The notes beneath the pieces were generated by a model that saw nothing but the letters and a program-made list of their open reading frames with translations, did no database searches and had not been told where the DNA came from. The position numbers and the translations under genes were made by a program. 50,540 bases of DNA from an uncultured Lachnospiraceae bacterium (GTDB lineage: Bacteria > Bacillota > Clostridia > Lachnospirales > Lachnospiraceae), in the NCBI GenBank assembly GCA_947627365.1, contig CANQVT010000013.1, positions 1 through 50,540 on the forward strand, in the 5' to 3' direction. Positions 2,547 through 40,285 of this stretch are shown piece by piece. Position 1 is the first letter of the stretch; each line of letters starts with the position of its first letter.

Positions 2547-3431
2547 TCACACGGCGAAAAATTTGTATGCCACTTCGTCGATCACTTCCACGCTCTCCTT
2601 TAAATCGAGACGGTAGGCCGGAAACGCGTGCGTCAGTTCCTTCTTTCCCGTATAGTACAACAGCCTGCAGCTTTGACCGTTCTTTTTTAACGCGTCCGCG
2701 TATTTCAAAGTGTACTTCCTTAAGAAGTCCGCGTCGCTCGATACCAGGAGCATCGGAGGAAGGCTGCGCATGACCTCCGGATCCTCCGGGTTCATGTACC
2801 GCATAAATTCTCTGTCAAGGCATTTTTTGCCGTAAATCTGCAGCGGATAGGCCACTCCTATAAGATCCGCCTTCTTCGTGTAGAACATCCCGCTGAAGAA
2901 AGCCATTCTCCGGATCTGCAAGCCGGAGACGGGGCAGCCGATCTTTTCCCGTATCCGCTCTGAATTGTGCATGGCAGCCGTATAGAGCGTCAGGTATGCA
3001 CCCGCGCTCTCCGCGACCGCGTAAACCCTGTTTCTGTCGCCGTCATAGCGGGGAAGCAGCGCTTCCGCCTGCTGGAATCCCGCGCAGATATCCGCGATCT
3101 CCTGACAGGCGTCCGCCTCTGTGAGCAGCCGGTATTCCAGATTGAATACCAGAAAGCCTCTGCGCGCCAGCTCCTGGCAGATGGCGCTCGTCAGCTTCCG
3201 GCTGCCCACATAGAGTCCGCCGCCGTGTACCATGAGAATGACAGGCAGTTTGACCCCCGCGTATTTTTTCGCCCGGTAGATATCCAGGAATAGAGGATTA
3301 TGGCCGCCGCCCGAATACGCGACGTCCAGCTGCGCTTCGATGTCGCTTGCGACCGCCGTTTTTTGGCTGTCGTAATACGACTCCGCTTTTTTCTGCGCGT
3401 TTTTTGAAAAATAGTACAAAATCGTTTTCAT
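2547..3431 (-). CDS. Alpha/beta hydrolase, HSL/acetyl-esterase-like
   Basis: 294-residue cytoplasmic hydrolase of the hormone-sensitive-lipase type. Visible elements: oxyanion motif HGGG in MVHGGGLYVG (about 89-92), nucleophile elbow AESAGA (Ser about 160, with Ala in place of the first Gly of GxSxG), candidate acid Asp in SSDADFL (about 230) and candidate base His in LTHAF (about 268). It starts one nucleotide after the stop of the preceding gene, so the two are probably translated together. It is clearly a paralogue of the N-terminal half of that preceding protein (shared order: ELPVI-type strand, HGGG, EYRL, SAGA, MNPE, LPP). Substrate unknown; trimming or hydrolysis of an acyl or peptide intermediate of the pathway is plausible but unproven. 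Confidence 0.85.
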   Translation of the reverse strand: MKTILYYFSKNAQKKAESYYDSQKTAVASDIEAQLDVAYSGGGHNPLFLDIYRAKKYAGVKLPVILMVHGGGLYVGSRKLTSAICQELARRGFLVFNLEYRLLTEADACQEIADICAGFQQAEALLPRYDGDRNRVYAVAESAGAYLTLYTAAMHNSERIREKIGCPVSGLQIRRMAFFSGMFYTKKADLIGVAYPLQIYGKKCLDREFMRYMNPEDPEVMRSLPPMLLVSSDADFLRKYTLKYADALKKNGQSCRLLYYTGKKELTHAFPAYRLDLKESVEVIDEVAYKFFAV

Positions 3432-3432: not shown

Positions 3433-5880
3433 TTATTTCTCTACGTAATAGTCAACCGTGCTTACGTCAAACAGGGCCCCCATCACATCCATCAGCAGCT
3501 TGCTCGGTCCCTTATCCGCGGCTCCTTCCGCAGAAGCCCCGGTCTTAGAGACTTCCGCTTTCATTTCCTTTTGCGCCATTATGCCGCCTCTCGTCATGAA
3601 GAGCAGAGAAAGCGCTTTGCTCACACGCTGTATATGCCTGTTCCAGTCCTCAGTCTTCTCCAGACGTTTCTTTCTGGCTTCGTCTGTCTCTCCCAGAGCC
3701 AGATAGGGTCCTGCCGCGTACGGAAGCTGCGGCATGAGCATAGGCAGCGGAAACGGCATAAACGCCGGCGCCGCCGGGCCGTCCCCGTAGGCGACGTTAG
3801 CGACATAATCCCTGGCGTGTGCCTTTTCGGCCTTCACCTCCGCCTTGGCGCCCCTTTCCTCCAGGAACTGTCTGATCTGTGCAAGCTCTTCTTTTGTGAC
3901 TGTCTTATCCTCGATACAGAGCTGATCGATGCTTGCAAAGTTAACCGGTTTTTCTTCCCCGCGCCACTGCTGCACCAGGGAAGCATACGCAAAGAGCGTG
4001 TCCACATGATAGGCTTCCACGGCCCTGCTGTACCTTCCGCTGTACCCCGCCTTGTAGGTCATCAGCACGGAATCGTTGAGCAAAAGCGCCTGATGAAGCT
4101 GTTTCGCCAGGGAATGTGTGTTATACAGATCCAGTGTCAGGCCGACGAACCGACGATGCTTATGTTTCCCGTACCCTTCAAGGGCGATCGCGTTAATCTG
4201 CGCATCGGAGAAGGAAACCGCGGTATATTCCCCGGCATCGTCTTTCTGCGTGTGAAGCGCCATGCTGGTCCTTGTGCAAGGTCTCGCCGCATAGGAAATC
4301 GGCGTCGCCTCATATTTTGCCAACAGCTCCGACATGAACAGCACGCCTTCCACCCTCTTCAGCTGCAGCTCGTTGGCTCTGGCCGCGCGCTTCTCTCTTT
4401 CACTCGCGCAGGGGCCTGCCGCCTCTGTGTGCAGGACGACGATGCTTTTCAGGCCAATCTCTTCTCTTTCTTCGGTCAGCCTGCGCAGCAGCGCGGGCGT
4501 GATCTCATAATCCGTAAGGATCAGATCCGTGAGCTTTTCTTTTTTGATCAGTTCAATCATCTGCCCGGTTTTTTGTACCAACGGGTACGGCAGCATGGAA
4601 ATGAACGCGCCCGTCATATCAAGGGCGTAGAAGCTGCTTGCCGCCTCCGCCGTCATCGCGCCTAAGATACCGACGCGGGCGGCGCCCTTTTCGGACATCC
4701 CCAGCGCGGAGAAGACTTCCGCGTATTTCTTCCACTGGCGCAGCATCTGGCGATAGGTGTATTTTCTGCTGTCTTCCACGATCGCCACCGCGTCCAGCTT
4801 ATCCTTCGATTCTGAATTCATGCCGGACACAGCTTCCCAGAGCCTCTGTTTGGCAAAGCTGCCATCTGCAATCTCCTGCCCGATCTCTTTTGCCCTTTTC
4901 TTCTCTCTGGAGATCGTCTTCTGTCTCGCTTTCGCAAGCGCTGCCTGCTCCTCGAAGAATTTCACCATCTTGTCGTTCGCGTCCTTACTCTGCGGCAGAT
5001 ACGGCCTTGAGAAGTTGAAGGTGTGGAGCAGATCCTGCTCTCCGTAGTAGAGGAGCTTTGTGGTCTTGCCCGCGTTTTTCAGCGCCTTGTGGAACATGAG
5101 CGTATAGTTGTTCAAAAAGTCTCCCCTCGATGTCACCAGGAAGGTAGGCGGAAGGTTGTTGATGATCTCCAGATGCTCCGGGTTCATGTACTGCAGGAAC
5201 TTTTTGTCATCAAACTTATCGCCGTAAAACTGCTCGGCAAGGAGCATTCCCAGAAGATCGTCGCCGTTGGTGTAAAACATTCCGCAGGAAAGTCCCAGCG
5301 CTTTGAAAGTCATTCTGCTGGGTTTATAGCCGATGGCGTCCTGCAGCTTTTTGGATTTTTTCATCGCGGCCGTGTAGATGGCAAGAAAAGCTCCCGCACT
5401 GTCAGCCGTCAGGAAGATCCTGGTCGGATCCACATCGTACTCGACGATTTTTTTGCCGACATAGTCCATTCCGGCGCAGACATCGTCCAGCTGTTCGCAG
5501 ATGGTAGCTCTGGGCGCAAGCCGGTATTCGATCGCAAATACCAGATATCCCCTGGATGCCATCTCCTTGCCCAGCTTAAAGGAGATCTTGCGGTCGCCCG
5601 TCACCAGGCCGCCGCCATGGATACTCACGATCACAGGGAGCTCCTTGCCGTCGTACTCCGGTCCCACCGGTTTGAAAATATCCATCGCCAGAGGAACTCC
5701 GGCGCGGTTGATATAGGGAAAGTTCAGCGATTCCTCTACGTTGGGCGGCACTTCGTCCTCCCCGTAGGGGTTCTTAAGATTGCTCGCCCCGACGCCCTGC
5801 AATACTTCCAGGGCAACGCGAACGCCGATCCTGCGAACGCTTCCCATAACATTTCTCTCGTGTTTCATCTCATGTTGCAT
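3433..5880 (-). CDS. Alpha/beta hydrolase fused to a degenerate adenylation (AMP-binding) domain
   Basis: About 815 residues. Residues about 35-315 form an HSL-type hydrolase with HGGG, nucleophile elbow ADSAGA, acid region SRGDFL and a His in LLHTF. After a basic linker, residues about 330-620 align with the N-terminal part of the adenylation domain of the neighbouring gene (shared TYRQM, KYAEVFSALG, VEGVLFMSELL, YEATPI). The ATP-binding signature HTSGTTKG is however replaced by HTQKDDAGE, and there is no YGxxE, no hinge aspartate and no catalytic lysine, so the adenylation half should be inactive. A Met/Pro-rich patch (MPFPLPMLMPQLPY) follows near residue 690-710. The start was set at the ATG at 5880 behind GAGGAGGGAG; a GTG at 5916 would overlap the previous gene. 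The role may be structural, by pairing with the active paralogue; this is inference. Confidence 0.85.
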   Translation of the reverse strand: MQHEMKHERNVMGSVRRIGVRVALEVLQGVGASNLKNPYGEDEVPPNVEESLNFPYINRAGVPLAMDIFKPVGPEYDGKELPVIVSIHGGGLVTGDRKISFKLGKEMASRGYLVFAIEYRLAPRATICEQLDDVCAGMDYVGKKIVEYDVDPTRIFLTADSAGAFLAIYTAAMKKSKKLQDAIGYKPSRMTFKALGLSCGMFYTNGDDLLGMLLAEQFYGDKFDDKKFLQYMNPEHLEIINNLPPTFLVTSRGDFLNNYTLMFHKALKNAGKTTKLLYYGEQDLLHTFNFSRPYLPQSKDANDKMVKFFEEQAALAKARQKTISREKKRAKEIGQEIADGSFAKQRLWEAVSGMNSESKDKLDAVAIVEDSRKYTYRQMLRQWKKYAEVFSALGMSEKGAARVGILGAMTAEAASSFYALDMTGAFISMLPYPLVQKTGQMIELIKKEKLTDLILTDYEITPALLRRLTEEREEIGLKSIVVLHTEAAGPCASEREKRAARANELQLKRVEGVLFMSELLAKYEATPISYAARPCTRTSMALHTQKDDAGEYTAVSFSDAQINAIALEGYGKHKHRRFVGLTLDLYNTHSLAKQLHQALLLNDSVLMTYKAGYSGRYSRAVEAYHVDTLFAYASLVQQWRGEEKPVNFASIDQLCIEDKTVTKEELAQIRQFLEERGAKAEVKAEKAHARDYVANVAYGDGPAAPAFMPFPLPMLMPQLPYAAGPYLALGETDEARKKRLEKTEDWNRHIQRVSKALSLLFMTRGGIMAQKEMKAEVSKTGASAEGAADKGPSKLLMDVMGALFDVSTVDYYVEK

Positions 5881-5912
5881 CTCGTCTCCCTCCTCTCGTT
5901 TCCCCGCAGTCC

Positions 5913-8582
5913 TCACTGACTCACCGGCGGAGTAAACAGCGGCATATACGGTACCTGCGGCATCTGCGGCATGTACGGCATCTGCGGCTGCGCGCCTGTC
6001 TGCTGCGGCATATACGGTGCCTGCGGCATCTGAGCCTGCGTGCCCGTCTGCTGCGGTGCGTATTGCATCTGCGGCATGTTCTGCATCAGCTGCATCTGCT
6101 GCATAGAGATATAATTCATCATCTGCGTCAGGCTGTTCATGATCTGCATACTCATAGCCTGCGCCATATTGAAGAACTGCATCATCATCTCAACCGGCTG
6201 CTGGTACAGTCTCTGCTGTCCTTTTGCAAATACCTCCAGCATGATCTTGGAATTTGCGATTCTTCCGGCAGCGTTCAGCACCGTCTCATCCGCTGTGGTG
6301 CTCTTTACGCTCTCCACGATCTGGGAAAGCTCATCCGGGATCGCGCCGTTTCCGACAGAATTCGACTCGTCGGCGTCGTACTCGAAGAGAATATCCTTAA
6401 GCACGCCGTTCCACTTTACCGGACGGATCACGTATCTGGCTCCTGTGACGCCGCCCTCTGTGATCTTATAGATGTCTACCTTGCCGTTTGCGTTGTGCGG
6501 GATCTGATCTACCATCACGCACTGCACCGGAAGATTGGTCTCTTCCGCCTTTCCGTTTTTGATAAAGACGTTCACCAGCGCGTCTTTTACGATCGCTATC
6601 GGCTCTTTGCCCTGATTAGCCGCTGTCTGCACATAGAGCACCGGCACTGTGTCGTGGGTCATGATCTTGTCGAACCACGGAACTACCGCGCACGCCTCGA
6701 TGCCCGGCTCCGCAGCCACCTGCGATTCCACCAGACCGGCGTTGAACTTGATTCCCTCATTGTTCACAAAGAAACGGTTCGCGCGGCCCTGCCATCTGAG
6801 GCTGCCGTCCTTGTTGACGCCGACTACATCGTTTGTACAGATATAGGGAATGCCGTCGATCATCTCCGGCTCGAAGAAGGATTCGTCGCCGATCTTTCCT
6901 TCGCTGATCGAATCGGAGCTGATATACAGAACGCCTGTGTGTTTGTCCTTGACGGAATAGAATTTTTCCTCGTTTTCATCGAAGATCTTGATCTTCACCC
7001 CGGGCAGCGGAAGCCCGATGGAATCGTCCTCCACCTCGTCCGTCTGGATGATGCAGGCGCCGCCTGTCTCGGACATGCCGTAGCCGTTGATAAAGGCCGC
7101 GTTTCCTCCTCTCGCCTTCACGATCTCGTCATAGTGCTTCCTCGCCTCGGCCGACAGATAGGAGCCGCCGAAGACGATCAGTTTTACAGACGAGAAATCC
7201 GGCAGGCATTCCGGCGGCATCTTCGCCCAGATCTCAAAATAGAACGGCGTGATGAAGAGAATATTCACCTTGTAGTGCTCGATTGCCTTCAGGGCAAAGG
7301 GATTGCTCGTCGCCATCGGCGGAATGAGCACGCTGCACCCGAAGGCGAGCGGCGCGTGGAGCTGATCTGCAAGCCCGTACACGGATGTCGCCACCATGAA
7401 ACACATGGATACCGCCCCGTTTTCAAACTGTTTAGCCTTTCCGCTCTTGATCAGGCTTTCCGCCGCCGCGTTTAACGCGATATCAGACAGCGGCGCCGGT
7501 TTGCTGATGCCCTTGGTCGTGCCGGAGGTATGGAGGATAAACGCGTCTTTTTCAAATACATCCGGACCGTATTTGATCGGCGTCGCCTCATACTCATTCA
7601 GTAGATCGTCCATGAACAGAGCACCCTGCACCTTCTTAAGCTGTGCGTAATTGTTGTTGCTCATCTGGATGAGCTCCGGCTCCATGTTCTCGTTTTCCAG
7701 CGAAACTCGTGCTACGATGATGTTGCGGAGTCCAAGCTTCGTTCTTTTCCTGAGAATGCTTACCAGCAGTTTGCTGTTGACCACCAGGTCGTTGATAAAC
7801 AGATCTGTGATCTTTTCTGTCTCGATCACTTTTTCAAGCGGATATTTGTCGGATATCGTGTACGGCGACAACCCCGCGATGGATGCGCCGGTCATGTTCG
7901 CCGCGTAGATCGCGAACGAAGATTCGGCCGAGGTGCAGTCGAAAACAGCCAGGCGGGAGTGGTTCTCCGCCGTAATGTTCAAGGCGGAAAATACTTCCGC
8001 GTACTTCTCCCAGGTGCGGAACATCTGGCGATAGGTATAGGTTCTATCCATGGAAATAAGAGCGACCCTGTCTAATCTCTCGTCGCTTGCGGAATTTTTC
8101 TCCACGATATATTTCCAGCTCTTCATGCGGATCGCTTCCGCATCCAGTTCATTTTTCTCCTTTGCCCGCCCCGCGGCTGCGCGTGTTCGCTTCGCGCCGG
8201 CGTTTGCCTTTCCTCTGGCCGTTCTTCCGGCGGCCTTCGCTGTCGCTGGCTTCGTTGACGCCGGCTTCGCGGTCGCTTTTCTTCTGCCGCGCCTCCTGGG
8301 TTCCTCCTGCACTACTTCCGCCACGGTTTTCTGTGTCTGATCCTGTGCTGCTTCCGCCACGGTTTCCTGCGTCTGAGCCTGCACTTCCTCCGCCTGAGCC
8401 TGCACTTCCTCCACCTGAGCCTGCACTTCTTCCGGTACCGGAGCGCCTTCTGCGCTCTCCTGCGCGGACGCGTCGCTTACAATCTCCTGTGCCGCGGCAT
8501 CGCCCGCAGTCCCCCGGATCTCGTTCTCGCCCGCGATTTCCTGCATCGCGCCGTCATTCGTGTTTTCATTGATCGGACTCAT
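5913..8582 (-). CDS. Adenylate-forming enzyme with charged N-terminal and Met/Gln/Pro-rich C-terminal tails
   Basis: 889 residues, an ANL-superfamily acyl/aryl acid ligase. Residues about 30-95 are an Ala/Glu/Gln/Val-rich segment with short VQAQ-type repeats; 95-143 are Lys/Arg/Ala-rich and histone-H1-like. About 150-690 is the adenylation domain, with HTSGTTKG, NGYGMSETG, CTNDVVG, WQGRANRF and C-terminal NANGKVDIYK carrying the catalytic lysine, so it looks active. The last 100 residues contain 20 methionines by my count and end in MPQMPY-like units also found in the repeat protein encoded just upstream in the operon. Both tails are expected to be disordered. The start is firm: ATG preceded by GAGGAGAACACT. 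It could activate a fatty, aryl or amino acid for the NRPS product. There is no carrier domain of its own. Substrate and tail function are unknown. Confidence 0.85.
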   Translation of the reverse strand: MSPINENTNDGAMQEIAGENEIRGTAGDAAAQEIVSDASAQESAEGAPVPEEVQAQVEEVQAQAEEVQAQTQETVAEAAQDQTQKTVAEVVQEEPRRRGRRKATAKPASTKPATAKAAGRTARGKANAGAKRTRAAAGRAKEKNELDAEAIRMKSWKYIVEKNSASDERLDRVALISMDRTYTYRQMFRTWEKYAEVFSALNITAENHSRLAVFDCTSAESSFAIYAANMTGASIAGLSPYTISDKYPLEKVIETEKITDLFINDLVVNSKLLVSILRKRTKLGLRNIIVARVSLENENMEPELIQMSNNNYAQLKKVQGALFMDDLLNEYEATPIKYGPDVFEKDAFILHTSGTTKGISKPAPLSDIALNAAAESLIKSGKAKQFENGAVSMCFMVATSVYGLADQLHAPLAFGCSVLIPPMATSNPFALKAIEHYKVNILFITPFYFEIWAKMPPECLPDFSSVKLIVFGGSYLSAEARKHYDEIVKARGGNAAFINGYGMSETGGACIIQTDEVEDDSIGLPLPGVKIKIFDENEEKFYSVKDKHTGVLYISSDSISEGKIGDESFFEPEMIDGIPYICTNDVVGVNKDGSLRWQGRANRFFVNNEGIKFNAGLVESQVAAEPGIEACAVVPWFDKIMTHDTVPVLYVQTAANQGKEPIAIVKDALVNVFIKNGKAEETNLPVQCVMVDQIPHNANGKVDIYKITEGGVTGARYVIRPVKWNGVLKDILFEYDADESNSVGNGAIPDELSQIVESVKSTTADETVLNAAGRIANSKIMLEVFAKGQQRLYQQPVEMMMQFFNMAQAMSMQIMNSLTQMMNYISMQQMQLMQNMPQMQYAPQQTGTQAQMPQAPYMPQQTGAQPQMPYMPQMPQVPYMPLFTPPVSQ

Positions 8583-8625
8583 AGTGTTCTCCTCTCTTTT
8601 ATGTTCTGTTTACGTTTCATACCGG

Positions 8626-8648
8626 CAGGCGCCAAGATGCGGCGCCCG
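8626..8648 (-). other. Intercistronic stem-loop
   Basis: Between the repeat-protein gene and the ligase gene lies an inverted repeat with 8-bp arms (one G-U pair) and a 7-nt loop. No T-tract follows, so it does not look like a terminator. A hairpin just downstream of a short gene inside a long operon could protect its message from 3' decay and raise its yield; this role is inferred. Confidence 0.4.
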
Positions 8649-8663
8649 CGTTCTTTTCATGTA

Positions 8664-9218
8664 CTATTTTTCTTCTTCCTTGGTAGCTGCTGCCGGCGCA
8701 AACGCGTACGGCATCTGCGGCATCGCCGGTGCGGCCGGCTGCTCACCTTCCTTCGGGGCAAACGCGTACGGCATCTGCGGCATCGTCGGTGCGGCCGGCT
8801 GCTCACCTTCCTTCGGGGCAAACGCATACGGCATCTGCGGCATCGTCGGCGCGGCCGGCTGCTCACCCGCCTTCGGGGCAAACGCATACGGCATCTGCGG
8901 CATCGTCGGTGCGGTCGGCTGCTCACCTTCCTTCGGGGCAAACGCATACGGCATCTGCGGCATCGTCGGCGCAGCCGGCTGCTCGCCTGCCTTCGGGGCA
9001 AACGCATACGGCATCTGCGGCATCGTCGGCGCGGCCGGCTGCTCGCCTGCCTTCGGGGCAAACGCGTACGGCATCTGCGGCATCTGCGCAGCGCATGCAT
9101 TCGGCGCCGCTATCGGCCCGAACATGTACGGCATCTGCGGCATCTGCGCAGCGCCCTCCTGCGGCTTACCCATTGTGAACGGTGCGTAGCCATTTGATGG
9201 ATTCTGTTGGTTTTTCAT
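8664..9218 (-). CDS. Tandem-repeat protein with MPQMPYAFAPK-type 20-residue units
   Basis: 184 residues, almost wholly repeats and likely unfolded. After a short N-terminal lead (MKNQQNPSNGYAPF) come eight units of about 20 residues built on MPQMPY(A/M)F followed by APK(A/E)GEQPAAPT; the two N-terminal units are diverged and the protein ends in a charged KEEEK. There is no signal peptide, membrane segment or known domain. The ribosome binding site AAGGAGG is perfect, so it may be the most abundant product of the operon. The MPQMPY core recurs in the C-terminal tail of the ligase encoded next and, more loosely, in the hydrolase/pseudo-adenylation protein, suggesting that the three proteins associate, for example as a scaffold. 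A peptide precursor is less likely because no cleavage or modification genes of that kind are present. Function unknown. Confidence 0.8.
   Translation of the reverse strand: MKNQQNPSNGYAPFTMGKPQEGAAQMPQMPYMFGPIAAPNACAAQMPQMPYAFAPKAGEQPAAPTMPQMPYAFAPKAGEQPAAPTMPQMPYAFAPKEGEQPTAPTMPQMPYAFAPKAGEQPAAPTMPQMPYAFAPKEGEQPAAPTMPQMPYAFAPKEGEQPAAPAMPQMPYAFAPAAATKEEEK
8701..9180 (-). repeat. 60-bp tandem repeat array, eight copies
   Basis: Eight consecutive 60-bp units with exact period. Six (8701-9060) differ from one another at only a few positions, mostly silent changes or Ala/Glu swaps; two (9061-9180) are diverged after the shared first 25 nt or so. The period of 60 keeps the reading frame and gives the 20-residue protein unit. 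Near-identity of the inner copies points to recent duplication or gene conversion, so copy number probably varies between strains. The lack of stop codons in the unit also creates long spurious open frames on both strands here. Confidence 0.95.
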
Positions 9219-11001: not shown

Positions 11002-11082
11002 TGTTACCTCCTTGTTGCATACTTGCATTTATTTCTCATACATGTGCCATTCATGTATTCTTGTGTGACCGCCCCAGCGAAC

Positions 11083-11541
11083 CTACAGGAACTCGTCGAG
11101 TATCCTGTCGTATTCCGGCAGCAGATTCACGTCCGTGTGGAGCGTAAAGTGATCGCAGTCCGGGAATTCGATGATCTGCAGATCCTTCGCCACCTTCTTG
11201 GCCAGGAAGATTCTTCCCTCCACAGCGGTCTGGCTGCTGTCCTTTGACGCCAACAAAAGCACCGTGTGTCCGTCGTAGGGTTTTATGGTCTTCACCTTGG
11301 AGTTAAAGTAGCTCAGCATACTGTATCCGAACAGGATACCCTCCTGCGGGATGTCGTGCTCCTTCACCTTCTGGATCAGGTATTCGTCCAGATCGTCGAT
11401 GGTCAGCGTCTTTGCCGCACCGGTGCTCATGGACGGGATCATGTCCGTATCGCCCAAAAATACGATTGGCTTGCTGCCCCGGATCCTTTCTGTCCGCTCC
11501 GCCATCACAAAGCCCAGCTCTCCGGCGAAGGAATAGCCCAC
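11083..11541 (-). CDS. Thioesterase C-terminal half, separated from the NRPS by an in-frame TAG
   Basis: This frame is the direct continuation of the NRPS reading frame after its TAG (11563-11565). It holds the catalytic part of a type I thioesterase: nucleophile GYSFAGE, a candidate acid in FLGDTDM and a candidate base in DCDHFTLH. The only start near its head is a GTG at 11541, two codons before the catalytic Gly-Tyr-Ser, with no good ribosome binding site, so it is unlikely to be made as a proper independent enzyme. It would be produced only by read-through of the TAG, or it is a pseudogene fragment, or the TAG is a sequence error. Without the stop the NRPS would be about 7,389 residues and end in an ordinary TE domain. 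Confidence 0.7.
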   Translation of the reverse strand: MGYSFAGELGFVMAERTERIRGSKPIVFLGDTDMIPSMSTGAAKTLTIDDLDEYLIQKVKEHDIPQEGILFGYSMLSYFNSKVKTIKPYDGHTVLLLASKDSSQTAVEGRIFLAKKVAKDLQIIEFPDCDHFTLHTDVNLLPEYDRILDEFL

Positions 11542-11562
11542 AAATCCGAAAATCCTGTCTGT

Positions 11563-12360
11563 CTATGGAACCATAAGCTCCAGCAGCGTCATATACAGAT
11601 CCGCCACGTCGTCGAAGGTTCCGCCCTCGAACAGCTCTTTGAAGTGGAAGTTCACCGTATCGAAGGTGATCATGTTAAACTTGCGGCACCAGTCCTCAAC
11701 CAGATGCTGAATGCTGGCGTGAAAGATAATGCCGTATATGAACACAAGGGTCGGCTTGTTCTCGTCGAACTCATTGAAGTGTCCGCAGATTCGGTACCCG
11801 CCGCGCGTAAACTCTTTTTTCAGACTGTCGTCCACACGATCCGTGATCCGGAAATTCCTTCCCGTCTCGCCTGCGAGCAGAGCGATCAGCCGCGCCGACA
11901 GCAGATATTCGGACAGGCCGCAGATGCTGCCGAGCATCGGCGCGATCGCCGTCACCAGATAGCTGCTTCCCTCGTCCTTTTTCACGCAGTACAGCCTGAA
12001 CAGCGGATCTCTCTGCAGATCGACCTTCTCCTGCAAAAGCTCTTCCCGCAGGCTTCTCACGAATGAGAGCGGATCCGTCTCGCCGGACGCGTCTGTGTAG
12101 GTGCAGCGCAGTGTACGATCCGAGAGCACGCAGCGCGGAACGCTCACGCCCTCGTACACGATCGACGCAGCAAGTACGTCGTACATTTCCTCCATGCGAG
12201 CGAGCGCCCTGCTCACCGCAGCCTTTTTCGGCACGCTGTCGATCTCAAAGATACCGACAAACTCGTAGCTGGCGTCTCTTAATTCTTCTGTCTTTTCCCT
12301 GATCGCTTCCTCCTGCTCGGACGTGAACGGACGTATCTGCCTGATCTCTTCGCCGCGGCT
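11563..12360 (-). other. NRPS termination region: dead C-domain N-lobe plus N-terminal half of TE
   Basis: After E5 the sequence follows the start of a D-to-L C domain (IRPFTSEQEEAIREK, then a stretch parallel to C5), but where C5 has THHIIVDGWSQQN this copy has IAPMLGSICGLSE, so the catalytic histidines are gone; the second lobe is missing. It passes directly into the first strands of a thioesterase (CGHFNEFDENKPTLVFIYG). The frame stops at TAG 11563-11565, nine codons before the catalytic GYS of the TE. Confidence 0.8.
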
Positions 12361-15300
12361 CTCAAAATCCGCCTGCACGGCCTCGAATTCTTCTTCTGTC
12401 CACACCGTCTCTTTGTAGTCGCTCGCGGTTCTGACCACGCGCTCCAGGGAATTCAGGTATTCCGCTTCCTTCAGAAGCTCCGCGAGCACCTCGTCCATTA
12501 TGGCCTTCATCTGCTCCTGTCCGCAGAAATCCTCGCTGTAGGATACCGACAGCTTAAAGCAGCCGTTTTCTACCATGCAGTTGATATTGATATCCGAACC
12601 GAAGCAGTTTTCCTTCAAGCCCACCGCGCCGGTGTCGACGTCCGTCACCACGCGAAACAGGCTCTCTTCGCCGTCTTTTGCCTCTCTTGCCGTCTCGCCC
12701 AGATAGTTAAAGCTGATCTTTGCGATCTTTTCCTTGGGCCAGCCGAACGTCTCTTCTCCCTCTAGGAAGCGCAGCACGTTGTATCCCGCGCCCTTGTCCG
12801 GGACTTTGTGAAGCGTCTCCTTTACCCGGATCAGATCCCCGCGGATGTCATCGCCCGCGTTGACGCCGCGCAGGATAACCGGATAGATGGAAGTAAACCA
12901 CCCCACCGTCCGATCCAGAGTAAGCCCCTGCGCGATGTCCTCACGCCCGTGGCCTTCCAGCTGAACGGACACGCCGCCTGTCTGCATTTCCCTGCAGTAG
13001 GCTCGCGCCACCGCCGCCAGCAGGACGTCGTTCATATCCAAATTCATGTTTTCTTTCTTCGCGCTCAAAAGCAGCGCCGTTTCTTCTCTGCCGAGAGCGG
13101 CCTCCAGCATCGCGAAGCTGCGCGTGTAGTCCTTCAGGTCTGAGGTCTCTGTCTGCACAAGCTCCTCCTGCACCTTCTCCCAGTAGGGGATCTGCGCCTT
13201 TAAGGCTTCGCTGTCTCTGTACGCCTGCAGAGCCTCCGCGTAATCGCGGTAGTTGCTGGTCTTTTCTTCCAGAACCGGCGTCCTTCTGTCCAGCAGCTGC
13301 AGACAGGCCGTCTCCAGATCCGGCAGGAGGACGCGCCAGGAAACGCCGTCTATGATCAGATGGTGCGCCACCAGAAACAGCAGCTCCTCATCCGCCCTGT
13401 GGATCAGCGCCGCCCGAAGAAGCGCGCTCTCCATATCTATGCCTTTCTTTATGCCGGTGCACAGCTGCGTCAGCGCCTCCGCGCGGCTGTCCGTCAGCTC
13501 ATATTCCTCCAGCGCGATCACGGCCTCTTTGTCTCTTATGTACAGCCCGCCGTCTTTTACGACCGCGCGCAGCATATCGTGCTGGCGCGTCAGCTCCCTC
13601 AGCGCCCGCTGCAGCTTTTCGGCGTCCACACGCCCGCTTACCCTCAGCAGCATAGACTGCGTAAAGAACGAAGGCTGCGGCAGCTTCAGATACTTGAAGA
13701 AGCTCACGATGGCGCTGTCCGGTATGCTTCCGCTGATGGCCTCCTGGCTGACGGCGCTTGTCTCCTCCCGCTCCTGCGCCAGCGCCGCGATCTGCCGGAC
13801 ATTGTTCTGCTTTGTGATGTCCGAGATCTGCAGACGGATGTTCTTTTTGCGCAGAATGCTGACCATGCGCATCGCCTTGATGGAATCGCCGCCCAGCTGG
13901 TAAAAGTTGTCCAGCGCGCCCACCTGATAGCTGATGCCGAGCACATCCTGAACGCACTGCGCAATGGCGGTCTCGTACAGCGTCTCCGGCGCCACATAGT
14001 GCCTGCCCGCCACGACCGGCTCCGGCAGCGCGTTGTGATCCACCTTGCCGCCCGGAGTCAGCGGAATCTCATCAATGCACATAAAGTGCGTGGGCACCAT
14101 ATAATCGCTCAGCCGTTCCGCCAGATGCGCCTGCAGATCGGCCTCCATTTTTTCCAGCTCCTCCGCCTCCGGTTTTTCGTCCTTCAGCACATAGTACAGG
14201 ATCAGCTGCTCGTTCTTGACGGCAGCCACAGCCTTGCGGAGCGTCGGATACAGGATGGCATGGCTCTCGATCTCGCCAAACTCGATGCGATATCCCCTGA
14301 GCTTCACCTGGCTGTCGGTTCTTCCGATGTATTCCAGCTGCCCGTCTTCATTGTACCGCGCAAGGTCGCCGGTCTTATATACTCTGACAGCCGTATCCCC
14401 GACCATGATCTCTGTAAATTTCTCCGCCGTCATATCCGGCAGCTTCCAATAGCCCTCCGCCATCTGCGCACCGCTTAAGCAGATCTCGCCCGCCACGCCG
14501 CGCGGCAGCAGATTGCCGTACCGGTCGCAGATAAAGCTGGCCGTGTTCGGCACCGGTCTTCCGATGGGGATATTTTCCTCCCCGCCCTTTACCACATAGT
14601 AAGAGGTACACACCGTAAACTCGGTGGGCCCGTAGCCGTTTATGATGTCAAAGCCCTCATGCTCGCAGGGCAGCAGCTTTTCGCCGCCCATCATCAGGTA
14701 ATCCAGCTTCAGCTTCGGATTATAGCGGATCAGCTCCATGCCGAACTGCGTGGAGGCAGTCATACCGCTGATCTCGTGCGCCGAGAGATATTCGTCCATA
14801 TCGCTAAGGCTCCTGCGAAGGTCCTCGTCAAAGATGTGGACCGCCGCGCCCACTGAGAGCGGGCAGATCAGGTCGTCCAGCGAGCCGTCGAAGGAAAAGC
14901 TGTTAAAGTGGCCGTACTGCTTGCCCGCCTGTATGCCGAGCTTCTCCGTTCTCCAGCACGCGAACTGATGGAGGGATCTGTGGCTCTGGATCACGCCTTT
15001 CGGCCTGCCGGTGGAGCCCGACGTATAGATCATATACGCGTAATGCTCCGGCTTTGCCAGATTGACCGGCTGCGCCTCTTCCTTGCCTGTCATCATGATC
15101 TGCACGATATCTTCCGTGACGATCGCCTTCGCGCCGGAATCCTCCAGCATATAATTGACCCTGTCCTCCGGATAATCCGCGTCGATGGGCACGTAAGCCG
15201 CGCCGGCCTTCTGTATGCCGATCACAGCCACCGGGAACTCCCTGCCGCGCTTCATTTTGATCGCCACAAATTCGTTTGGCTTCACCCCGATGGAGAGCAG

Positions 15301-18300
15301 GGACGCCGCCACCAGATCGGAATACTGATCCAGCTCGCGATAGGTCATACTGCCCGTGCGGTCAACCACCGCGATCTGGTCCGGATACTGCTTCGCCGCG
15401 CGCAGGAACAGGTCGATCCACGTCTCATCCTGCGGGTACGCGATGCGCTCTCCCACGGAAACCGCGCACACTTCTTTTCGCTCTTCCTCGCTCACCCTCG
15501 CAAAGCGGCTGACCGGCATATCCGGCGAAACGGCGATCTGCTGCGCGAACAGTCGGAACAGCTCCATCACCTGACGGATCTGCAGCCCCGTATAGCGCGT
15601 CCGGTCGAAGGTAATGTGCAGGCAAAGCTCGCCTTCGGCATTGACAGATGCGTCCACGCTCAGTCCGTTGAAGGTCTCTTCTCTCAAGACAAGGGGCGTC
15701 ACTGTGATCCCCGCCGCGTCCTTAACGCCCTTTACATCCGCGCCGCTGTTGTAGTTCTGGAAGGCAAACACGGTCTGCAAAAGCTGGTCTCCCAGCACGC
15801 TCTGCCGCTGAATCTCCGCAAGCGGACAGTAGTCAAAAGCGTTTCCCGCGGTCGCCTGCTGCTGCAGTCGTCCAATCATCTGCCTCGCCGTCGCGTCCAC
15901 GTCTGTCGTCACGCGCACCGGAACGGAATTGATAAACAAGCCCGTCAGCGCGCTGACGTCCATATCCGCCTTGTCGCGGCCGGATACCACCTTGGCGAAC
16001 ACCGCGTCCTGTGTATTGTTATAAGTCTGGAGCACCAGCCCCCATGCAAGCTCCGCCACGTTGCTCAATGTCGCCTTTTCTTCCCTGCACAGCTCGGCCA
16101 ACGCATCTGTCGTCTTCCGATCAACCGTCAGGACAAGCTCATCCTGAGCGCTTTGTTTTTCCTCCGGCACCGTGCCGTAGGATGGGATCTCCGTCCTTGT
16201 ATCGTAGCCCTCCAGCAGCTCTCTCCAGTAAGCGAGCGCCTCGTTTTTATCAAGCGCAAGCACTCTTCGCACATACGTCTCGTACAGGCCGTCTAAGGAT
16301 CTGTCCTGCCTTGGCACTTCCGTACCTGCCATCTCCTGCAAAAGCCAGGTGAACAGGTCCGCTAAGTAATTTTGCTGGCTCCAGCCGTCCACGATGATAT
16401 GGTGGGTGACGACCAGCAGATAGCAGCTCTTTTCGTCCTTCTTCGCGCAGACAAGCTTAAAGAGCGGTTTCCGCGCAAGGTCAAACTCGTTTGTCAGGAT
16501 CTCCTCGCGCAGACGGCACACCGCCTCAAACGGATCCGCCTCGCCGGAGAGGTCAACGATCCGGTACGGGAGCAGCCGATCCGTGATCAGCTGTCTCGCC
16601 GCGGGTACGTTCTCATAGACGAACGCCGAGCGCAGCACCTCGTATTTTTCACCCAGTCTGTCCAGCGTGCTTCTGAGCTGGCGCTCCGTGGGGATGCCTC
16701 CCAGCTCGTATATGCTCACCAGGCGATACGCCCGGGAATCCGGCTCGGAAATATGCTTATAGAGCATTCCCTCCTGCATCGGAAGCAGCGGATAGATGCG
16801 GCTCACGTTCTCCCTGTGCAGCTTAAACTCGTTCATCACCGCCTCAAATTCTTCCTCGCTCCACTGCGTCTCACCAAAGTCTGAGGCCGTGACGATCTTT
16901 TCCTCGCAGGAATTTATAAAGTCCGCGAGCTTCCCAAGTTCCTCAAAGACGGCCGCGGCAAGCTTCTGCGCCTCTTCCTTTGTGTACAACGCTTCGTTGT
17001 AGGAAAGCGTCAGCGTAAAACTGCCGTCCGTGATCATGCTGTTCAGATCCAGATCCGGGCAGAAGCGATTCTTCTGGTGCTCCTCGTCCGTCCCGAGCCC
17101 GATGCTGTTCTCCACGGCAAACAGTCCTTCGGCCGCCTGTTCCGCGTCCATCTCTCCTAAATAGTTAAAGCCAAGCTGCGCGATCTCTTCTCTGGAATAG
17201 TCCGTCTTCTGCGCGCCTTCCATGTAGCGCAGCACGCCGTATCCCACGCCCTTATCCGGCACGCGGTGCAGCGTCTCTTTCACGCGGATCAGGTCCCGCT
17301 TCGGATCCGCGCCCGCAGTAATGTCTTCAAACACAACGGGATAGATGGAGGTAAACCATCCGATGGTGCGGTCAAGCGCCAGTCCCTGCGCAATGTTTTC
17401 GCGTCCGTGGCCCTCCATCTGGACGGACAGCGCGGCGCAGTGCTTCTCTTTGCAGTATGCTCTCGCCACCGCGGTAAGCAGCACATCGTTGACCGAAAGG
17501 CCCAACTTCTCCCTGTCTGCCCGGATCACCTTCGCCGTCGCCTCGCGGTCCATGGAAACGGACACGGCGGAAAAGCTCCTGTCAAAATCTTTCATATGCG
17601 ATACCGGCATGGAGAGCAGGCGCTCCTGCACACGGTTCCAGTACGGGATCTCCTGTGCCAGCCTGTAGCTGTCACGGTATGTTTGCAGCGCCTGCGCGTA
17701 GGACACGTAGCTCGCGGTCTTTGCCGGAAGCTGCGCCGCTCCCGTGCCAAGCAGACCCTCATAGGCCGTCTCCAGATCGGCGCTTAAAATCCGCCAGGAT
17801 ACGCCGTCCACGATCAGGTGGTGCGCCGCAAAGAACAGCTTGTCGCCGTTCCTGGTATGGATCAGCGCCGCGCGCAGCATCGCTGTTTTCGTATCAATAT
17901 GATCCTGAATCTCCATGCAGAGCGCGCGCACGTCTTTCTCTTCCGCCTCGTATTCCTCGACGGTGATAACGGCGTCCGCCTCTCTTGCATATAATTTATC
18001 TTCCCTTAACACGGCGCGGAGCATATCGTGCTGCTCCGTCAGCGCGTTTAAGGCCTCCTGAAGCACGCGGAGATCCGCCCGCTCCCGCATCCTCAGCAGG
18101 ATCGACTGCACCAGATGGGACGCATCCGGCTCCGGCAGCGCAAGGTCTTTGTAGAAGCAGATGATGGCGGTATCCGGCACTTCTCCCGTGACGGGCTCCT
18201 GGCTGGCGGCCGCTTCTTCCACGCTCTGCGACACACAGCCCGCGATGGCGCGCACGGTCTTTAAGCTCATCACATCCGACACGCGGACGGGCAGATCGCG

Positions 18301-21300
18301 CTCGCGCAACAGGCTCACCAGGCGGATCGCCTTGATGGAGTCGCCGCCTAAGGCAAAGAAGCTGTCCAACGCGCCCACAGGCTCAGAAAGCCCGAGGATC
18401 CTCTGCATGGCAGCGGCAACGGCGCTCTCACCCTCCGTCTGCGGTTCCACATATTCTTCTGAGGAGGTGACCACAGGCTCGGGCAGCGCGGACTTATCCA
18501 CTTTGCCATTCTGTGTCTTTGGCATTTCATCTAATTTTACATAGAAGGTGGGCACCATATAGTCGGCCAGCGTCTCCGCAAGATAAGCGGAAAGCTCCTC
18601 TTTTGTCGGCTCAGGCTCTTCGGTGTCGGCATACGGTATATAGTAAAGTACCAGCTGATCCCTCTTGATATCCACAACAGCGTACTCGATCGCCGGGTGG
18701 TCCATGGCGCGGTGCTCGATCTCGCCCAGCTCCACGCGGAACCCGCGGAATTTGACCATACTGTCGATGCGGTCGTAGTATTCCAGAAAACCGTCCTCGT
18801 TGTAGCGCACCAGATCCCCTGTGCGGTATGCTTTCCTCTTTTTGCCGCAGATCTCGCAGTCAACGAATTTTTCAGCCGTCAGCTCCGGACGCTTCCAGTA
18901 GCCGTCCGCTCTCTGGACGCCTGCCAGGTAGAGCTCTCCGATCACCCCTTGCGGCACCGGATTTCCATGGTTGTCGCAGACAATTCCGTAGTTTCCGGGC
19001 GCAGGTCTTCCGATAGGCGTATCGGCGTTGTTTCCGTCTTCCACCGGATGATAGGAGGAGAGGATCGTGAACTCGGTAGGCCCGTATACGTGGTAGACCG
19101 GGAATTCCGTCTTTCCGTAGGGCAGGAACTTGATGCCGCCGATCAGCAGGAAATCCACTTTCAGCGCCGGGTTATACTTTGCCATCTCCGCCCCGAACAG
19201 CGTCGGCATATACAAGCCGCTGATCTGATGCTTCGTCATGTACTCTTCCATCTCGATCAGGTTCCTGCGCAGGTCTTCGTCAAAAATATGTACGGTGCCG
19301 CCCGCCGCCAGTCCGCTGGCGTAGTCGATCAGGGAGCCGTCAAAGGCAAAGCTGGAGAGAATGCCGTATCTTCCCTCGTGCTTATAGCCGAAGGTCGGCA
19401 CGGTCCAGTTCGTGAAATTGTACAGGCAGCTGTGCAGCTCCAAAACGCCCTTGGGGACGCCGGTGGAACCGGAGGTATAGATCATGTAGGCATAGTGATC
19501 CGGTGCCGCCAGGTTCACGCTCTTGGCACCCTTATAATCGGCAATCGCCTGCTGCGTCAGCTCTCTTGTAAGCACAATCCTTGTCCCGGAGTCCTCCAGC
19601 ATAAACTGCACACGGCTTTCCGGGTACTCCGAATCAATCGGCAGATACGCGGCGCCCGCCTTAAATACGCCGAGGATCGCCACCATATATTCTTTTACGC
19701 GGTCCATGCGGATGGCCACGAAGCTGTTTTCCTTCACGCCGTTCGCCAGCAGGTACGCCGCCACCGCGTTGGACTGCTCGTCGAGCTCGCGGTAGGTCAT
19801 GCTGCTCTTTGCGTCCACCACGGCCGTGTGCTCCGGGTATTTCCGGGCGCTCGCGAGGAACTGATCCACCCAGGTCTCATCCGCCGGGTAGTTCAAATCT
19901 CCGCCCCATGAGAGCTCCATGACGGCCTTTTCATCCGCCTCGCTCAGCCTCGGAAGGCTGCGAAGGGGCGCATCCGGCTGCTGCGCGATGCCGGTGATCA
20001 GCACGCGGAACAGCTCCGTCACACGGTTCATCTGCAGCTCTGTAAAGAGGGTGTGGTCCGCGGCGACGTGCAGGCAGAGCTCTCCCGCATCCGTCACGTA
20101 GGCCGTCACATGCATCTCATCAAAGGTCTCTTCCTTCAGCACGAGGGGCTTTACCGAAAGCCCGCCGGGCAGTTCTTCCTGTTCCGCCTCGGCGCCGCTC
20201 GTGTAGTTTTCAAAGGCGAGCACCGTCTGCAAAAGCTGGTTCCCGAGCTCCGACTGGCGCTGGATCTCCGGAAGCGGGCAGAAATCCCATGCGTTGCTCT
20301 GCGCCGCCTGTCTCTGCAGCTTGTCAAGCATCTGCCTTGCCGTCGCGTCCGCGTCCGTCGTCACGCGCACCGGCACGGAGTTGATAAACAGACCCGCCAT
20401 ACGGCTGAGATCCATCCGGGTCTTATCGCGCCCCGACACGACTTTCGCGAACACCGCGTCGTCCGTGTGGCTGTAGGTCTGCAGCACAAGCCCCCACGCC
20501 AGCTCCACCGCGCTGTTTATCGTCGCCTTCTCCTCCATGCAGAGAGCGGCAAGCCGGTCGGTCGTCTCCTTATCTATCGTCAGCAGATAGTCGTCCGACG
20601 TCTGTTTTTCCACTTCTGTCACGCCGAAGGAAGGAATTTGCGCCTTTTTGTCATAGCCCTTTAAGAGCTCGCTCCAGTAGCGCAGGCCCTCGTTTTTATC
20701 CAGCTCAAGCAGCTGACGGACATACGCCTCGTACATGCCGTCCATGCTGTCTGTGTCATCCGTGCCGCCCGCGGCGTCAAAGATTTCCTCTCCGATATAG
20801 CGAAACAGATCCGTCATATAGTTCTGCAGGCTCCAGCCGTCCACGATCATGTGGTGCGCTGCCGATATAATATAGCAGCTGTTCGCATCCTTCTTCGCGC
20901 AGACGAGCCGGAACAGGGATCTGTGGGTAAGCTCAAAGCCATTGGTCAAAATATCCTCGCGGATGCGGCACGCGGCCGCGAAGGGATCCTGCTCCCCGCT
21001 CAGATCCGTCAGCGTAAACGGCAACGCGCGGTCCGTGATCACCTGTCTCGCCACCGGCACATTTTCATACACGATGGCAGTGCGCAGCACCTCGTATTTT
21101 TTGCCCAGCCGATCCAGTGCGCGGCGAAGCTGCTCCCCGTTGGGAAGCGCGTTCATCTCATAGATCTGAACCAGACGGTACCCCCAGGACGCCGGATCCG
21201 TGATATGCTTGTAGAGCATCCCCTCCTGCAGAGGCAGCAGCGGATAGATCCTGCTGATCTTTACGCCCTCGGCGGCAAATTCCTGCACTACCGCCTCAAA

Positions 21301-24300
21301 CTGCTCCTCCTGCCACTCCGTCTCTCCGAGATCCGAAGCCGTCCGGGCAGGCTCTTCGCTGCTATTTAAAAATTCCGTGATCTCTTTTAATTCCTGCAGC
21401 ACGGCGTCGGCCAGCTTCTTAGCGGCAGCGTCGTCGTACAGGCTCTCGTTGCAGGACATGCTTAAACGGAAGCATCCGCCCGTCACCGCGCAGTTCAGGT
21501 CAAGATCCGGACCACAGCAGTTTTCTTTTGCGCTCCAGCGGCCCGTATCGATGCTGCTGTCGATCGCAAACATACCTTCCCCGCTGTGCTCGGCGTCCGT
21601 CTCTCCCAAGTAGTTAAAGCCCATCATGGCAACGCGGTCCGCGCCAAGCAAAACGGCGCGCTCACCCGGAAGATAGCGCAGCAGGTTGTAGCCCACGCCC
21701 TTTATCGGCACGCGGCGCAGGGTCTCCTTCACACGGATGAGGTCATCGCGGATGCTGTCCGCGCCCTCTGTGCGGATCTTTTCAAACACTACCGGATAGA
21801 TGGAGGTAAACCAGCCCACCGTCCGATCCGTGATAAGGCCGTCGCCCAAAGCTTCCCGCCCGTGTCCTTCCATCTGGACCGACAGCTCCCCGCGGCCCGT
21901 CTGCGCGCAGAAAGCCCTTGCCACAGCGGTGAGCAGGATATCGTTGATCTCCAGTCTCCAGCCCTCTTTTGCGGCGCCGAGCAGCGACGAGGTCTCTTCC
22001 TGACTCATGGATACCGAAACCTCGGAGAAGCTTCTCTCATAGTCCTTTGCGCGCGAGCAGGGCATTGCTTCCAGCTGCTGCTGAACGCCGTTCCAGTAGG
22101 GAATCTCTTTTTCCAGGCTGTAGCTGCCGCGATAGGCTTCGATCGCTCCCACATAATCCGCGTAACTGCTGGTCTTTGCGGGAAGCGCGGGCTCTCTGCC
22201 CTCGGATGCCGCAGCGTAGGCGCCCTCCAGATCAGAGACCAAAATCCTCCATGACACGCCGTCTATGATCAAATGGTGCGCAAGCAGGAACAGAAGGTCC
22301 GCCTCCTGTGTATGGATCAGGGCAGCACGGAAAAGCCCCGATCCCATATCGATCCCGGCCTGGAGCCGTTCGCACAGTGCCGTCACCTCAGGCTCCTGTG
22401 CGGCAGTGTATTCTTCTATCGAGATCACCGTGTCCGCGCTTCTTATGTACAGGCTCTCGTCCTTCACCACGGCGCGCAGCATATCGTGCTGAACCGTCAC
22501 CGCGTGAAGCGCGGTCTGCAGCTTCGCAAGGTCGGCCCTGTCCGCAAAGCGCAGCAACACCGACTGGTTAAAGTGCGACGGAACCGGCAGATGCAGGTCT
22601 TTAAAGTAGCGGACGATCGCGCTGTCCCTTAAGCCGCCCTCGATCGGCTCCTGGCTGAGTGAGACCGCGTTTTTCCGGTCAGAAGCGCACTCGGCAATGG
22701 CGCGCACCGTCTTTTGCCGCATCACGTCCGCCACACGCAGCTCCATGTCTTTTTCGCGCAGAAGGCTCACCAAGCGGATCGCCTTGATGGAATCTCCGCC
22801 CAATGCGAAGAAGCTGTCCAGCGCGCCGACCCGTTCGCTTCTGCCGAGGATCCTCTGCATGCACTGCGCGACTGTCGCCTCATACCCGTCTTTCGGCTCC
22901 ACAAAGCTCTCATGCGACGTCAGATGCGGCTCCGGAAGTGCCTTGCGGTTCACCTTTCCGTTCGGCGTAAGGGGCATGGCGTCCATGCAGATATACACGG
23001 TGGGTAACATATAGTCGGTCAGTTCCTCTGCGAGGAAATGACGGATCGCCGCCTCGCCCGCGTCCTCCGTATCTCCGGCACGCTTTGTATAATAGAGCAC
23101 CAGCTGTTCGTTTTTCACCATCGCCACCGCCTGCTCGACGCCCGGGCAGAGCATCGCCCTACTCTCGATCTCGCCAAGCTCGATGCGGAAGCCTCTGAAT
23201 TTTACCTGATGATCCATTCGGCCGAGGTACTCGATCTGGCCGTCGGCCATATATCTTCCCAGGTCTCCGGATTTATATACTCTGCGCCTTGCGCCTGACA
23301 GCGTGATCTCAATAAATTTCTCGGCTGTCATCTCCGGCTTGTTAAAGTAGCCCGCTCCTACCTGTTCTCCGCCCAGGTACAGCTCTCCTGCCATCCCCTG
23401 CGGAAGCAGCTGTCCGTATTGGTCCACCACGTAGACGCAGCTTCCCGCCATGGGTTTTCCGATGGGAATGATCTTGCCGGAAAGGCTCTCGTCCACCTCG
23501 CAGTCGGACACGTCCACCGTACATTCCGTAGGCCCGTAGGCGTTGTACACGCGCCCGGTGCATTTTGGAACAGACGTCATCGCCTCGCCGGAGAGGCGGA
23601 TGTATTCCATTTCCAGACAATACTGGCTCCCCAAGAGCTGACCCATCTGGGTCGTGATATGGGTCCCGGTCACCTGATATTCCCGGAAGAAGTCATACAG
23701 CAGATCCACGTCTTTGCGCACGGATTCCGGCACGATGATCGTGCAGCCGCCAGAGCTGAGCACCGGGAAGATGTTCTCCACCGTCACGTCAAAGGAAAAG
23801 CTGGTATGGCAGGCGATCCTGCTCTCCGGTCTCATGTTCAGCCGCCCGATGATAAAGTGCACGAAGTTCAGCAGAGCGCTGTGGGGCACCATCGCACCCT
23901 TCGGCTTTCCGGTAGAACCGGAGGTATAGATCATGTACGCAAGGTTCCCCGGAGCGGCGAGATTCACGCGCTCCCTGTGCCCGGCGTCTCTTATCATCGT
24001 GTCCAGCGCCTCTTCAGTCAATCCTCGGTCTGCACCCTGCTGTTGCCCGCGAATGTCCTTTGTCACCGCCTCCAACACCTCTTCGGTCAGCACCACCCGC
24101 GCCTTCGAGTCTTCCAGCATGTAGCGGATGCGCTCCTCCGGATAGGACGCATCGATGGGCACATAGGCGGCGCCCGCTTTGTGGATGCCGGTCACCGCAG
24201 TGACAAATTCCTTTACACGGCCCATCTTCACCGCAACAAATGTATTTGGCTTTACATCGTTCTCCACAAGATAAGCCGCGACGCGGTCGGATTGTTCGTC

Positions 24301-35263: not shown

Positions 35264-35563
35264 TTAATCTTCGATCGTCAGCATATCTGAAAAACCGGTG
35301 ATCTCAAATACCTCCATGATCGTCTCGTTAGCGTGGCGCACTACCATTGTCCCCTGTTTATCCATCAGCTTCTGGGCCTGGAGCAGTGCGCGAAGTCCGG
35401 CGGAAGAAATGTACTCAAGCTCTGCCAGATCAAATGCCAGATCTGTCACATCGCCGGTGATCTTCTGGAGTTCCTCCTCCAGCTGCGGCGCGGTCGTCGT
35501 GTCCAGACTTCCGGAAAGTGTGAGTTCAACTGCGTTCCCTTCTTGATTTTTACTGATTGTCAT
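35264..35563 (-). CDS. STAS-domain anti-sigma-factor antagonist (RsbV/SpoIIAA-like)
   Basis: About 99 residues forming one STAS domain: LSGSLDTTTAP at the front, then DLAELEYISSAGLRALL with the phosphorylatable serine in ISSAGL, and the C-terminal helix ending FEITGFSDMLTIED. Such proteins bind RsbW-type kinases when unphosphorylated and are released after phosphorylation; a SpoIIE-type phosphatase reverses this. It is the first gene of the NRPS operon, whose exporter carries an intact RsbW-like domain, so the two may interact; no sigma factor gene is present here. The start was set at the ATG at 35563 behind GGAGGG; ATGs at 35578 and 35590 are alternatives. Confidence 0.92.
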   Translation of the reverse strand: MTISKNQEGNAVELTLSGSLDTTTAPQLEEELQKITGDVTDLAFDLAELEYISSAGLRALLQAQKLMDKQGTMVVRHANETIMEVFEITGFSDMLTIED

Positions 35564-35593
35564 TCCTTTTCCCTCCATATTGGCTTTCATATT

Positions 35594-35611: not shown

Positions 35612-35666
35612 CCGTATCAGTTCCCGCCCATGCGGTCATACGTGCTCTCCCCGCATTCATACATAT

Positions 35667-35697: not shown

Positions 35698-35767
35698 CCG
35701 CCGAATGATCTGTTACCTGTCAAAATAAACTTATCAAATTTTATTTTTATCACCTGATCTAAGAATC

Positions 35768-40247: not shown

Positions 40248-40285
40248 TGATCCTTGCACCCCGCTTTCTTTCTATATTTTTCTAC

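Follow-up and report, generated by a model that had tools for sequence, protein, structure and literature searches.

Pseudomonas polyhydroxyalkanoate (PHA) granules carry the small proteins PhaI and PhaF, which have a common core, extended in PhaF by a histone-like AAKP tail; the acyl-CoA synthetase ACS1 is found on the granule as well (extracts of PMC5658603). In the pyrenoid, a Rubisco-binding motif, which attaches to the Rubisco small subunit, is found in the repeat protein EPYC1 and in many others (extracts of PMC10473226). The Met-rich low-complexity region of Pbp1/ataxin-2 self-associates (extracts of PMC8394241), and the nonribosomal peptide synthetase (NRPS) of cereulide is tethered by CesCD, an ATP-binding cassette (ABC) transporter that binds its condensation domain (extracts of PMC7527721). 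Here we compare with these systems a locus of an uncultured Lachnospiraceae bacterium (GenBank assembly GCA_947627365.1, contig CANQVT010000013.1, positions 1 to 50,540 of the forward strand; this whole stretch is called the window), in which a protein of 184 amino acids (aa), built of repeats of the hexamer MPQMPY, is encoded next to an 889-aa ANL enzyme whose C-terminal tail carries close variants of the same hexamer. In the two full-length relatives of this enzyme known here the tail likewise matches the small neighbouring proteins, there through an unrelated sequence.

The 184-aa repeat protein (8664..9218, minus strand) consists of eight units of 20 aa, MPQMPYAFAPK(A/E)GEQPAAPT, with exact MPQMPY at residues 26, 46, 66, 86, 106, 126, 146 and 166, and is rich in Pro and Ala (40 residues each), Met and Gln (19 each). 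A profile scan assigned it to no Pfam family, phasin models included, and to a single NCBIfam match far under the cut-off (14.4 versus 1700 bits). Units 2 to 7 are near-identical (pairwise nonsynonymous divergence, dN, 0–0.047; synonymous divergence, dS, 0–0.41), and in the outer units 1 and 8, 18 of 20 positions are conserved in the motif half and 3 of 19 in the spacer half (Fisher P = 3e-6), so that the part held is MPQMPYxFxP. The gene has a strong Shine-Dalgarno sequence (AAAGGAGGAATTCAT) ahead of its ATG, and the gap between it and the ANL gene (8583..8663, minus strand) holds a 10-bp GC-rich stem, with no T run seen (8583–8666: minimum free energy −20.1, z −2.0, 5 of 200 shuffles equally good); the small protein being made in excess of the enzyme would fit both features.

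The 889-aa enzyme (5913..8582, minus strand) begins with an acidic region (residues 1–65, net charge −14) and a basic AKPA-like tract (95–143, net +17), followed by an AMP-binding domain (168–562; PF00501, 132.4 bits against a cut-off of 29.9, which places it among ANL-domain proteins), a weak AMP-binding_C domain under its own cut-off (618–701; 20.3 versus 24.5 bits) and then the tail. It retains the ANL core motifs LHTSGTTKGISK, GYGMSE, CTND and NANGKVD and is plausibly active. The tail (5916..6197, minus strand) opens with a Met/Gln-rich segment (796–842, 14 Met in 47 residues; hydrophobic moments of 0.25–0.43 for windows starting at 777–819) and ends in a Pro/Gln/Met tract containing MPQMQY (836), MPQAPY (852), QPQMPY (865), MPQMPQ (871) and MPQVPY (874), each one mismatch from MPQMPY.

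Next in order is an 827-aa protein (3433..5916, minus strand; its start is more likely the ATG at 5880, judging by the Shine-Dalgarno sequence there), made of an alpha/beta hydrolase (approximately residues 76–330) and half an ANL domain (approximately 341–692) that is 31% identical to the 889-aa enzyme, has LHTQKDDAGEYT in place of the P-loop and loses homology to that enzyme after residue 692. At 29.5 bits it also falls below the PF00501 cut-off of 29.9, and it does not count as a full ANL enzyme; it may be a pseudo-ANL adaptor that carries a hydrolase. Its codons for MPQLPY lie at 3718..3735 (minus strand). The hydrolase half is 41% identical over 268 aa to the following 294-aa alpha/beta hydrolase (2547..3431, minus strand), which lacks the motif. 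An earlier note on this DNA had described eight MPQMPY units in the small protein, several MPQMPY/MPQVPY units at the end of the enzyme and MLMPQLPY in the third protein, and had counted two adenylation-type proteins. The repeats are indeed eight exact hexamers with a 20-aa period and MLMPQLPY is present (MPQLPY at residue 728 of the 827-aa open reading frame [ORF]); the enzyme has MPQVPY and four other one-mismatch hexamers in its last 54 residues but no exact MPQMPY, and the 827-aa protein, in which half an ANL domain devoid of the P-loop follows a hydrolase, is not a second adenylating enzyme. For the strong translation that the note ascribed to the small protein, the Shine-Dalgarno sequence is the one sign seen. 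The observation of the note is partly confirmed.

Recurrence of the hexamer exceeds what composition yields. Among 50,000 shuffles of ANL residues 826–889, one near-hexamer arose in 2,195, two in 43, three in 2 and more in none, against five observed; for residues 701–760 of the 827-aa protein, one arose in 12 of 50,000 shuffles and one is observed. A hexamer within two mismatches of MPQMPY occurs in 0 of 16 further window proteins tested, and neither the 7229-aa NRPS ORF (11563..33252, minus strand; upstream of the repeat gene in the same gene run) nor the 294-aa hydrolase has the motif.

A class-wide search of 391 genomes returned one true homologue of the ANL enzyme (genome G798; E = 1.9e-135, 35% identity over residues 121–864), and a search of the 21 genomes around and including G798 gave one more (G856); a match in G826 (E = 2.8e-36, 27% identity) ends without a tail and was set aside as a generic ANL enzyme. 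G798 encodes, on a contig of 7545 bp, a 779-aa enzyme and downstream of it two full copies of a small protein (104 and 108 aa) with a third that is cut; the enzyme tail is 59% identical over 80 aa to the product of the next gene (E = 3e-29). In G856, where the enzyme seems to be divided between two contigs, four small proteins of 113, 109, 127 and 197 aa come next, all with the common core, the fourth (197 aa) adding to it a long AKPA-type basic tail in a PhaF-like plan. This core, of 73 positions, is 56–63% identical between enzyme tails and small proteins and 81% between the G798 and G856 tails; its composition suggests that it may be helical. The window tail is not detectably homologous to it, scoring no better than shuffles against the core profile, and the same arrangement thus arises with unrelated sequences. 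The tail matches the small neighbour or neighbours in 3 of the 3 full-length clade members known here (window, G798 and G856) through two unrelated sequences, and in each the module is multiplied, by tandem repeats within one protein in the window or by neighbouring gene copies in the relatives. The G798 locus also holds, between the small-protein genes (L084, 5560–7545), a 75-nt repeat in three copies (99% identity) and a 199-nt repeat in two (95%), with palindromic parts.

Bit scores and trees set the three enzymes together. The 889-aa enzyme scored 410 bits with G798, 351 with G856, 166 with the half-ANL of the 827-aa protein and ≤130 with 10 other aligned rows (8 outside loci and 2 NRPS domains). 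Support for the clade was 100/99 in a 10-row tree, in which a motif filter had dropped 7 of the 10 outside loci, and 76/100 in a 16-row tree, where the clade appeared in 78% of 200 bootstrap trees; the latter tree left out the 550-aa ligase and kept two short fragments (85 and 119 aa) that are probably in wrong frames. With 166 bits to either, the 889-aa enzyme and G798 are at the same distance from the half-ANL of the 827-aa protein, whose motif stands at a different place from that in the 889-aa enzyme. The motif was therefore probably not simply inherited by both, plain descent being unlikely; the argument is no more than suggestive, because the 827-aa half has the longer branch.

An all-codon search for MPQ[FILMV]PY in 47 genomes of the genus gave 16 matches, 10 of them within this operon; the remaining six lie in frames of 20–203 aa, five overlapped by a longer frame. 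In the genome_contigs collection (84,980 species, own or very near genomes possibly left out) a two-copy pattern hit six stretches, all unrelated places: four encode proteins that we take to be FliY-like by their look, one is a Vampirovibrio site where no listed ORF carries the motif, and one is a Met/Pro-rich 144-aa protein of Herbivorax (L036, 5397–5831) with two MPQMPY copies and no ANL gene noticed in 8 kb. The earlier note had proposed checking whether the motif always occurs with a tailed ANL enzyme; no ANL gene was noticed by eye within ≤8 kb of any of the six outside stretches, which were judged unrelated. The two-copy pattern had no match in viral contigs. Searches for the repeat protein in 98 related and 397 family genomes each returned its own copy and one other match, a large repeat-rich frame in G030 and a TPGTTMP-repeat protein in G428, both rejected as matches of composition. 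A repeat protein without a tailed enzyme, which the same note had named as a refuting case, was not seen in these sets or in genome_contigs, but neither was any other repeat protein.

No relative of the ANL enzyme was confirmed in genome_contigs, and the 98 related and 397 family genomes (at most two candidates scored per genome in the latter) had, besides its own locus, only generic matches of 24–29% identity. Elsewhere in 47 genomes of the genus and 397 of the family, what matches the 827-aa protein matches its hydrolase half only, and comparison of the window proteins with the surroundings of all 12 of these hydrolase genes in the family and of one ANL gene (4.9–20 kb each) gave, besides hydrolases, two weak MATE matches only. 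Plasmids gave no match, phages two records of 23–24% identity, and in viral contigs none was confirmed. MPQMPY was not mentioned in the literature searched, and the papers listed there on NRPS with scaffold, disorder and condensate were unrelated.

The most economical reading of the tail/small-protein match in all three members, together with multiplication of the module, is co-assembly of matching modules: the repeat protein would be a multivalent assembly partner of the ANL enzyme, and probably also of the hydrolase/half-ANL protein, a proposal that in our estimate stands about an even chance. The tail appended to the enzyme would carry the module of the small protein, contacts of like with like would draw the enzymes together as a cluster or coat, and the copies needed would be supplied by the eight tandem repeats in the window or by neighbouring gene copies in the relatives. 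We infer that the module binds itself, that assembly takes place in cells and that it serves the reaction of the enzyme. The earlier interpretation, of homotypic contacts gathering the enzymes, perhaps around the NRPS, is partly supported: comparison backs the sharing between enzyme tail and small neighbour, which recurs in 3 of 3 full-length clade members, but not the placing around the NRPS, as the NRPS ORF lacks the motif and no NRPS-like ORF was seen by eye on the 5.6- to 7.7-kb contigs of the relatives; what might link the assembly to the NRPS is their common operon alone. A broader and more tentative proposal, possible and clearly short of probable, is that these enzymes represent a clostridial assembly in which each tail is the self-associating module of the adjacent small proteins, so that an enzyme-coated granule or condensate would arise with no PHA synthase, with a replaceable module (a Pro/Met repeat in the window, a phasin-like core in G798 and G856) and a window version recruited into an NRPS operon.

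Several observations weigh against co-assembly. The piece common to the window proteins is only six residues long and never exact in the enzyme, and the 827-aa protein has a single copy. Ungapped BLOSUM alignment (20 shuffles per pair) scored the repeat protein at 50 with the 889-aa tail, within the range of composition (shuffle maxima 57 and 61), and at 49 with the 827-aa protein, above shuffles of the latter (maximum 39) but no higher than shuffles of the repeat protein can reach (maximum 51); the ABC protein and the ORF at 35844, window proteins unrelated to the 827-aa protein, each gave the same 49 with it. As the hexamer test exceeds composition but the BLOSUM scores do not, the signal lies in the motif and not in overall similarity. 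Unrelated clostridial proteins, too, have MPQMPY doublets where their sequence is of low complexity. The full-length members known number just three, of which one genus supplies two, and no protein resembling the 827-aa one was seen on the short contigs of the relatives (5.6–7.7 kb).

Of the other explanations, the one that survives best, itself unlikely, is that the motif is recognized by some third partner instead of by itself, or by a pocket within the ANL-like portion common to the 889- and 827-aa proteins, with the repeat protein stringing together copies of this common hub as EPYC1 does with Rubisco. Such logic is on record for the pyrenoid, where EPYC1 and many proteins have the Rubisco-binding motif (extracts of PMC10473226), and the 889- and 827-aa proteins do have both a homologous ANL half (31% identity) and the motif in common; the module of the relatives, however, is no short motif but a core of 73 positions, and self-association or coating would account for this better.

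Coating in the stricter sense, in which phasin-like small proteins and enzyme tails would cover a hydrophobic granule or membrane surface with an acid-activating enzyme bound to it and hydrolases mobilizing its content, is quite unlikely. The PhaF-like plan of the fourth G856 small protein and the AKPA-like basic tract of the window enzyme would suit it, and Pseudomonas granules bear PhaF, PhaI, PhaC, PhaZ and an acyl-CoA synthetase (extracts of PMC5658603). However, no phasin model was among the matches listed for six small proteins (Pfam and NCBIfam, E up to 10; best 25 of 34 and 25 of 36 families, HMMER filters dropping most weak matches). The class III PHA synthase model TIGR01836, through which alone other synthase classes were covered, matched at E 0.001 one of seven genomes (G677, of the same family as G798) and nothing in the window's own genome (G000), G798 or G856 (completeness 84.5, 96 and 75%), and the Pro-rich repeat protein would hardly form an amphipathic helix.

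That the Met/Pro/Gln tracts drifted into a functionless resemblance through slippage is improbable. The near-identity of the inner units indicates that the array is partly young, MPQxPY doublets occur in unrelated proteins, and the alignment score of the 889-aa tail is explained by composition alone; yet the outer units retained the motif after their spacers had gone, the hexamer test exceeds composition, and the same arrangement occurs in G798 and G856. Far less probable still is a multi-core peptide precursor or Met-based metal binder, with the repeat protein as substrate or copper sink instead of scaffold: its eight near-identical 20-aa units and M-x-x-M spacing, which resembles metal sites, would suit this, but no peptide-modifying or metal-handling family was found in Pfam/NCBIfam scans of the window proteins (NRPS ORF outside the scan), and the motifs in the enzyme tails and the arrangement in the relatives would be left unexplained.

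The source genome comprises 2.82 Mb in 104 contigs. Minus-strand genes between 149 and 35590 form one run, packed mostly tightly, in the order STAS protein (35264–35590), 550-aa AMP-binding enzyme, NRPS ORF, 152-aa ORF, MATE transporter fused to a HATPase_c_2 domain (9247–11028), 184-aa repeat protein, 889-aa ANL enzyme, 827-aa hydrolase/half-ANL protein, 294-aa hydrolase, beta-lactamase-family protein (PF00144; 732–2507) and phosphopantetheinyl transferase. The NRPS ORF stops at an in-frame TAG, beyond which the same frame stays open with a thioesterase-like GYSFAG motif (11083–11565); the 152-aa ORF that follows looks by eye like a thioesterase fragment and has no Pfam match, and the break may be a natural split, a pseudogene or an assembly error. 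The beta-lactamase-family protein, near the MATE and phosphopantetheinyl transferase genes, has hydrophobic C-terminal segments, and resembles prodrug-activating peptidases; a prodrug reading with the MATE protein, as for colibactin, was dropped as the presumed specificity positions of the first A-domain did not look Asn-like.

The surroundings of the NRPS have a partner-switching flavour (9247–11028 and 35264–50321), with the MATE/HATPase_c_2 fusion (no other example at E 1e-60 in the 98 related genomes), a SpoIIE phosphatase with HATPase_c_2 (46301–49177), the STAS protein and two SDF symporters with extra N-terminal parts. The end of the STAS protein, ITGFSDMLTIED, and that of a periplasmic-binding-type protein (49170–50321), VTGFSDILTIE, align with a best ungapped score of 54 (maximum 49 in 200 local shuffles), a second case of nearby genes with a common tail.

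If co-assembly of matching modules is correct, the enzymes would recruit themselves to a scaffold by bearing the scaffold's own module as a tail, and that module could be exchanged in evolution for an unrelated one. Nature would then bring enzymes together by a simple rule, and Clostridia would offer a candidate for a new protein granule. Set beside the systems portrayed in the extracts cited above, the clade resembles PHA-granule phasins in several ways: a core recurs across its small proteins, an AAKP-type basic tail extends one of these, an acid-activating enzyme is encoded alongside, and the window has hydrolases as well; it differs in that the enzyme bears the core of the small proteins as its tail, and in that the window uses a Pro/Met motif instead. 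With the EPYC1 system it has in common a repeat protein and other proteins with one short motif at differing places, if one mismatch is allowed in the 889- and 827-aa proteins, whereas in place of the known Rubisco hub the motif-bearing enzymes may themselves be the hub. Met-rich low-complexity stretches are found in the window proteins as in Pbp1, which is eukaryotic and lacks a repeated motif common to the protein of a neighbouring gene, and the cereulide synthetase pathway is likewise an NRPS pathway organized in space, but through an ABC transporter rather than a common motif. Within the ANL superfamily, the 889-aa enzyme and its G798 and G856 homologues match the Pfam AMP-binding family and are set apart by their shared tails and their bit scores.

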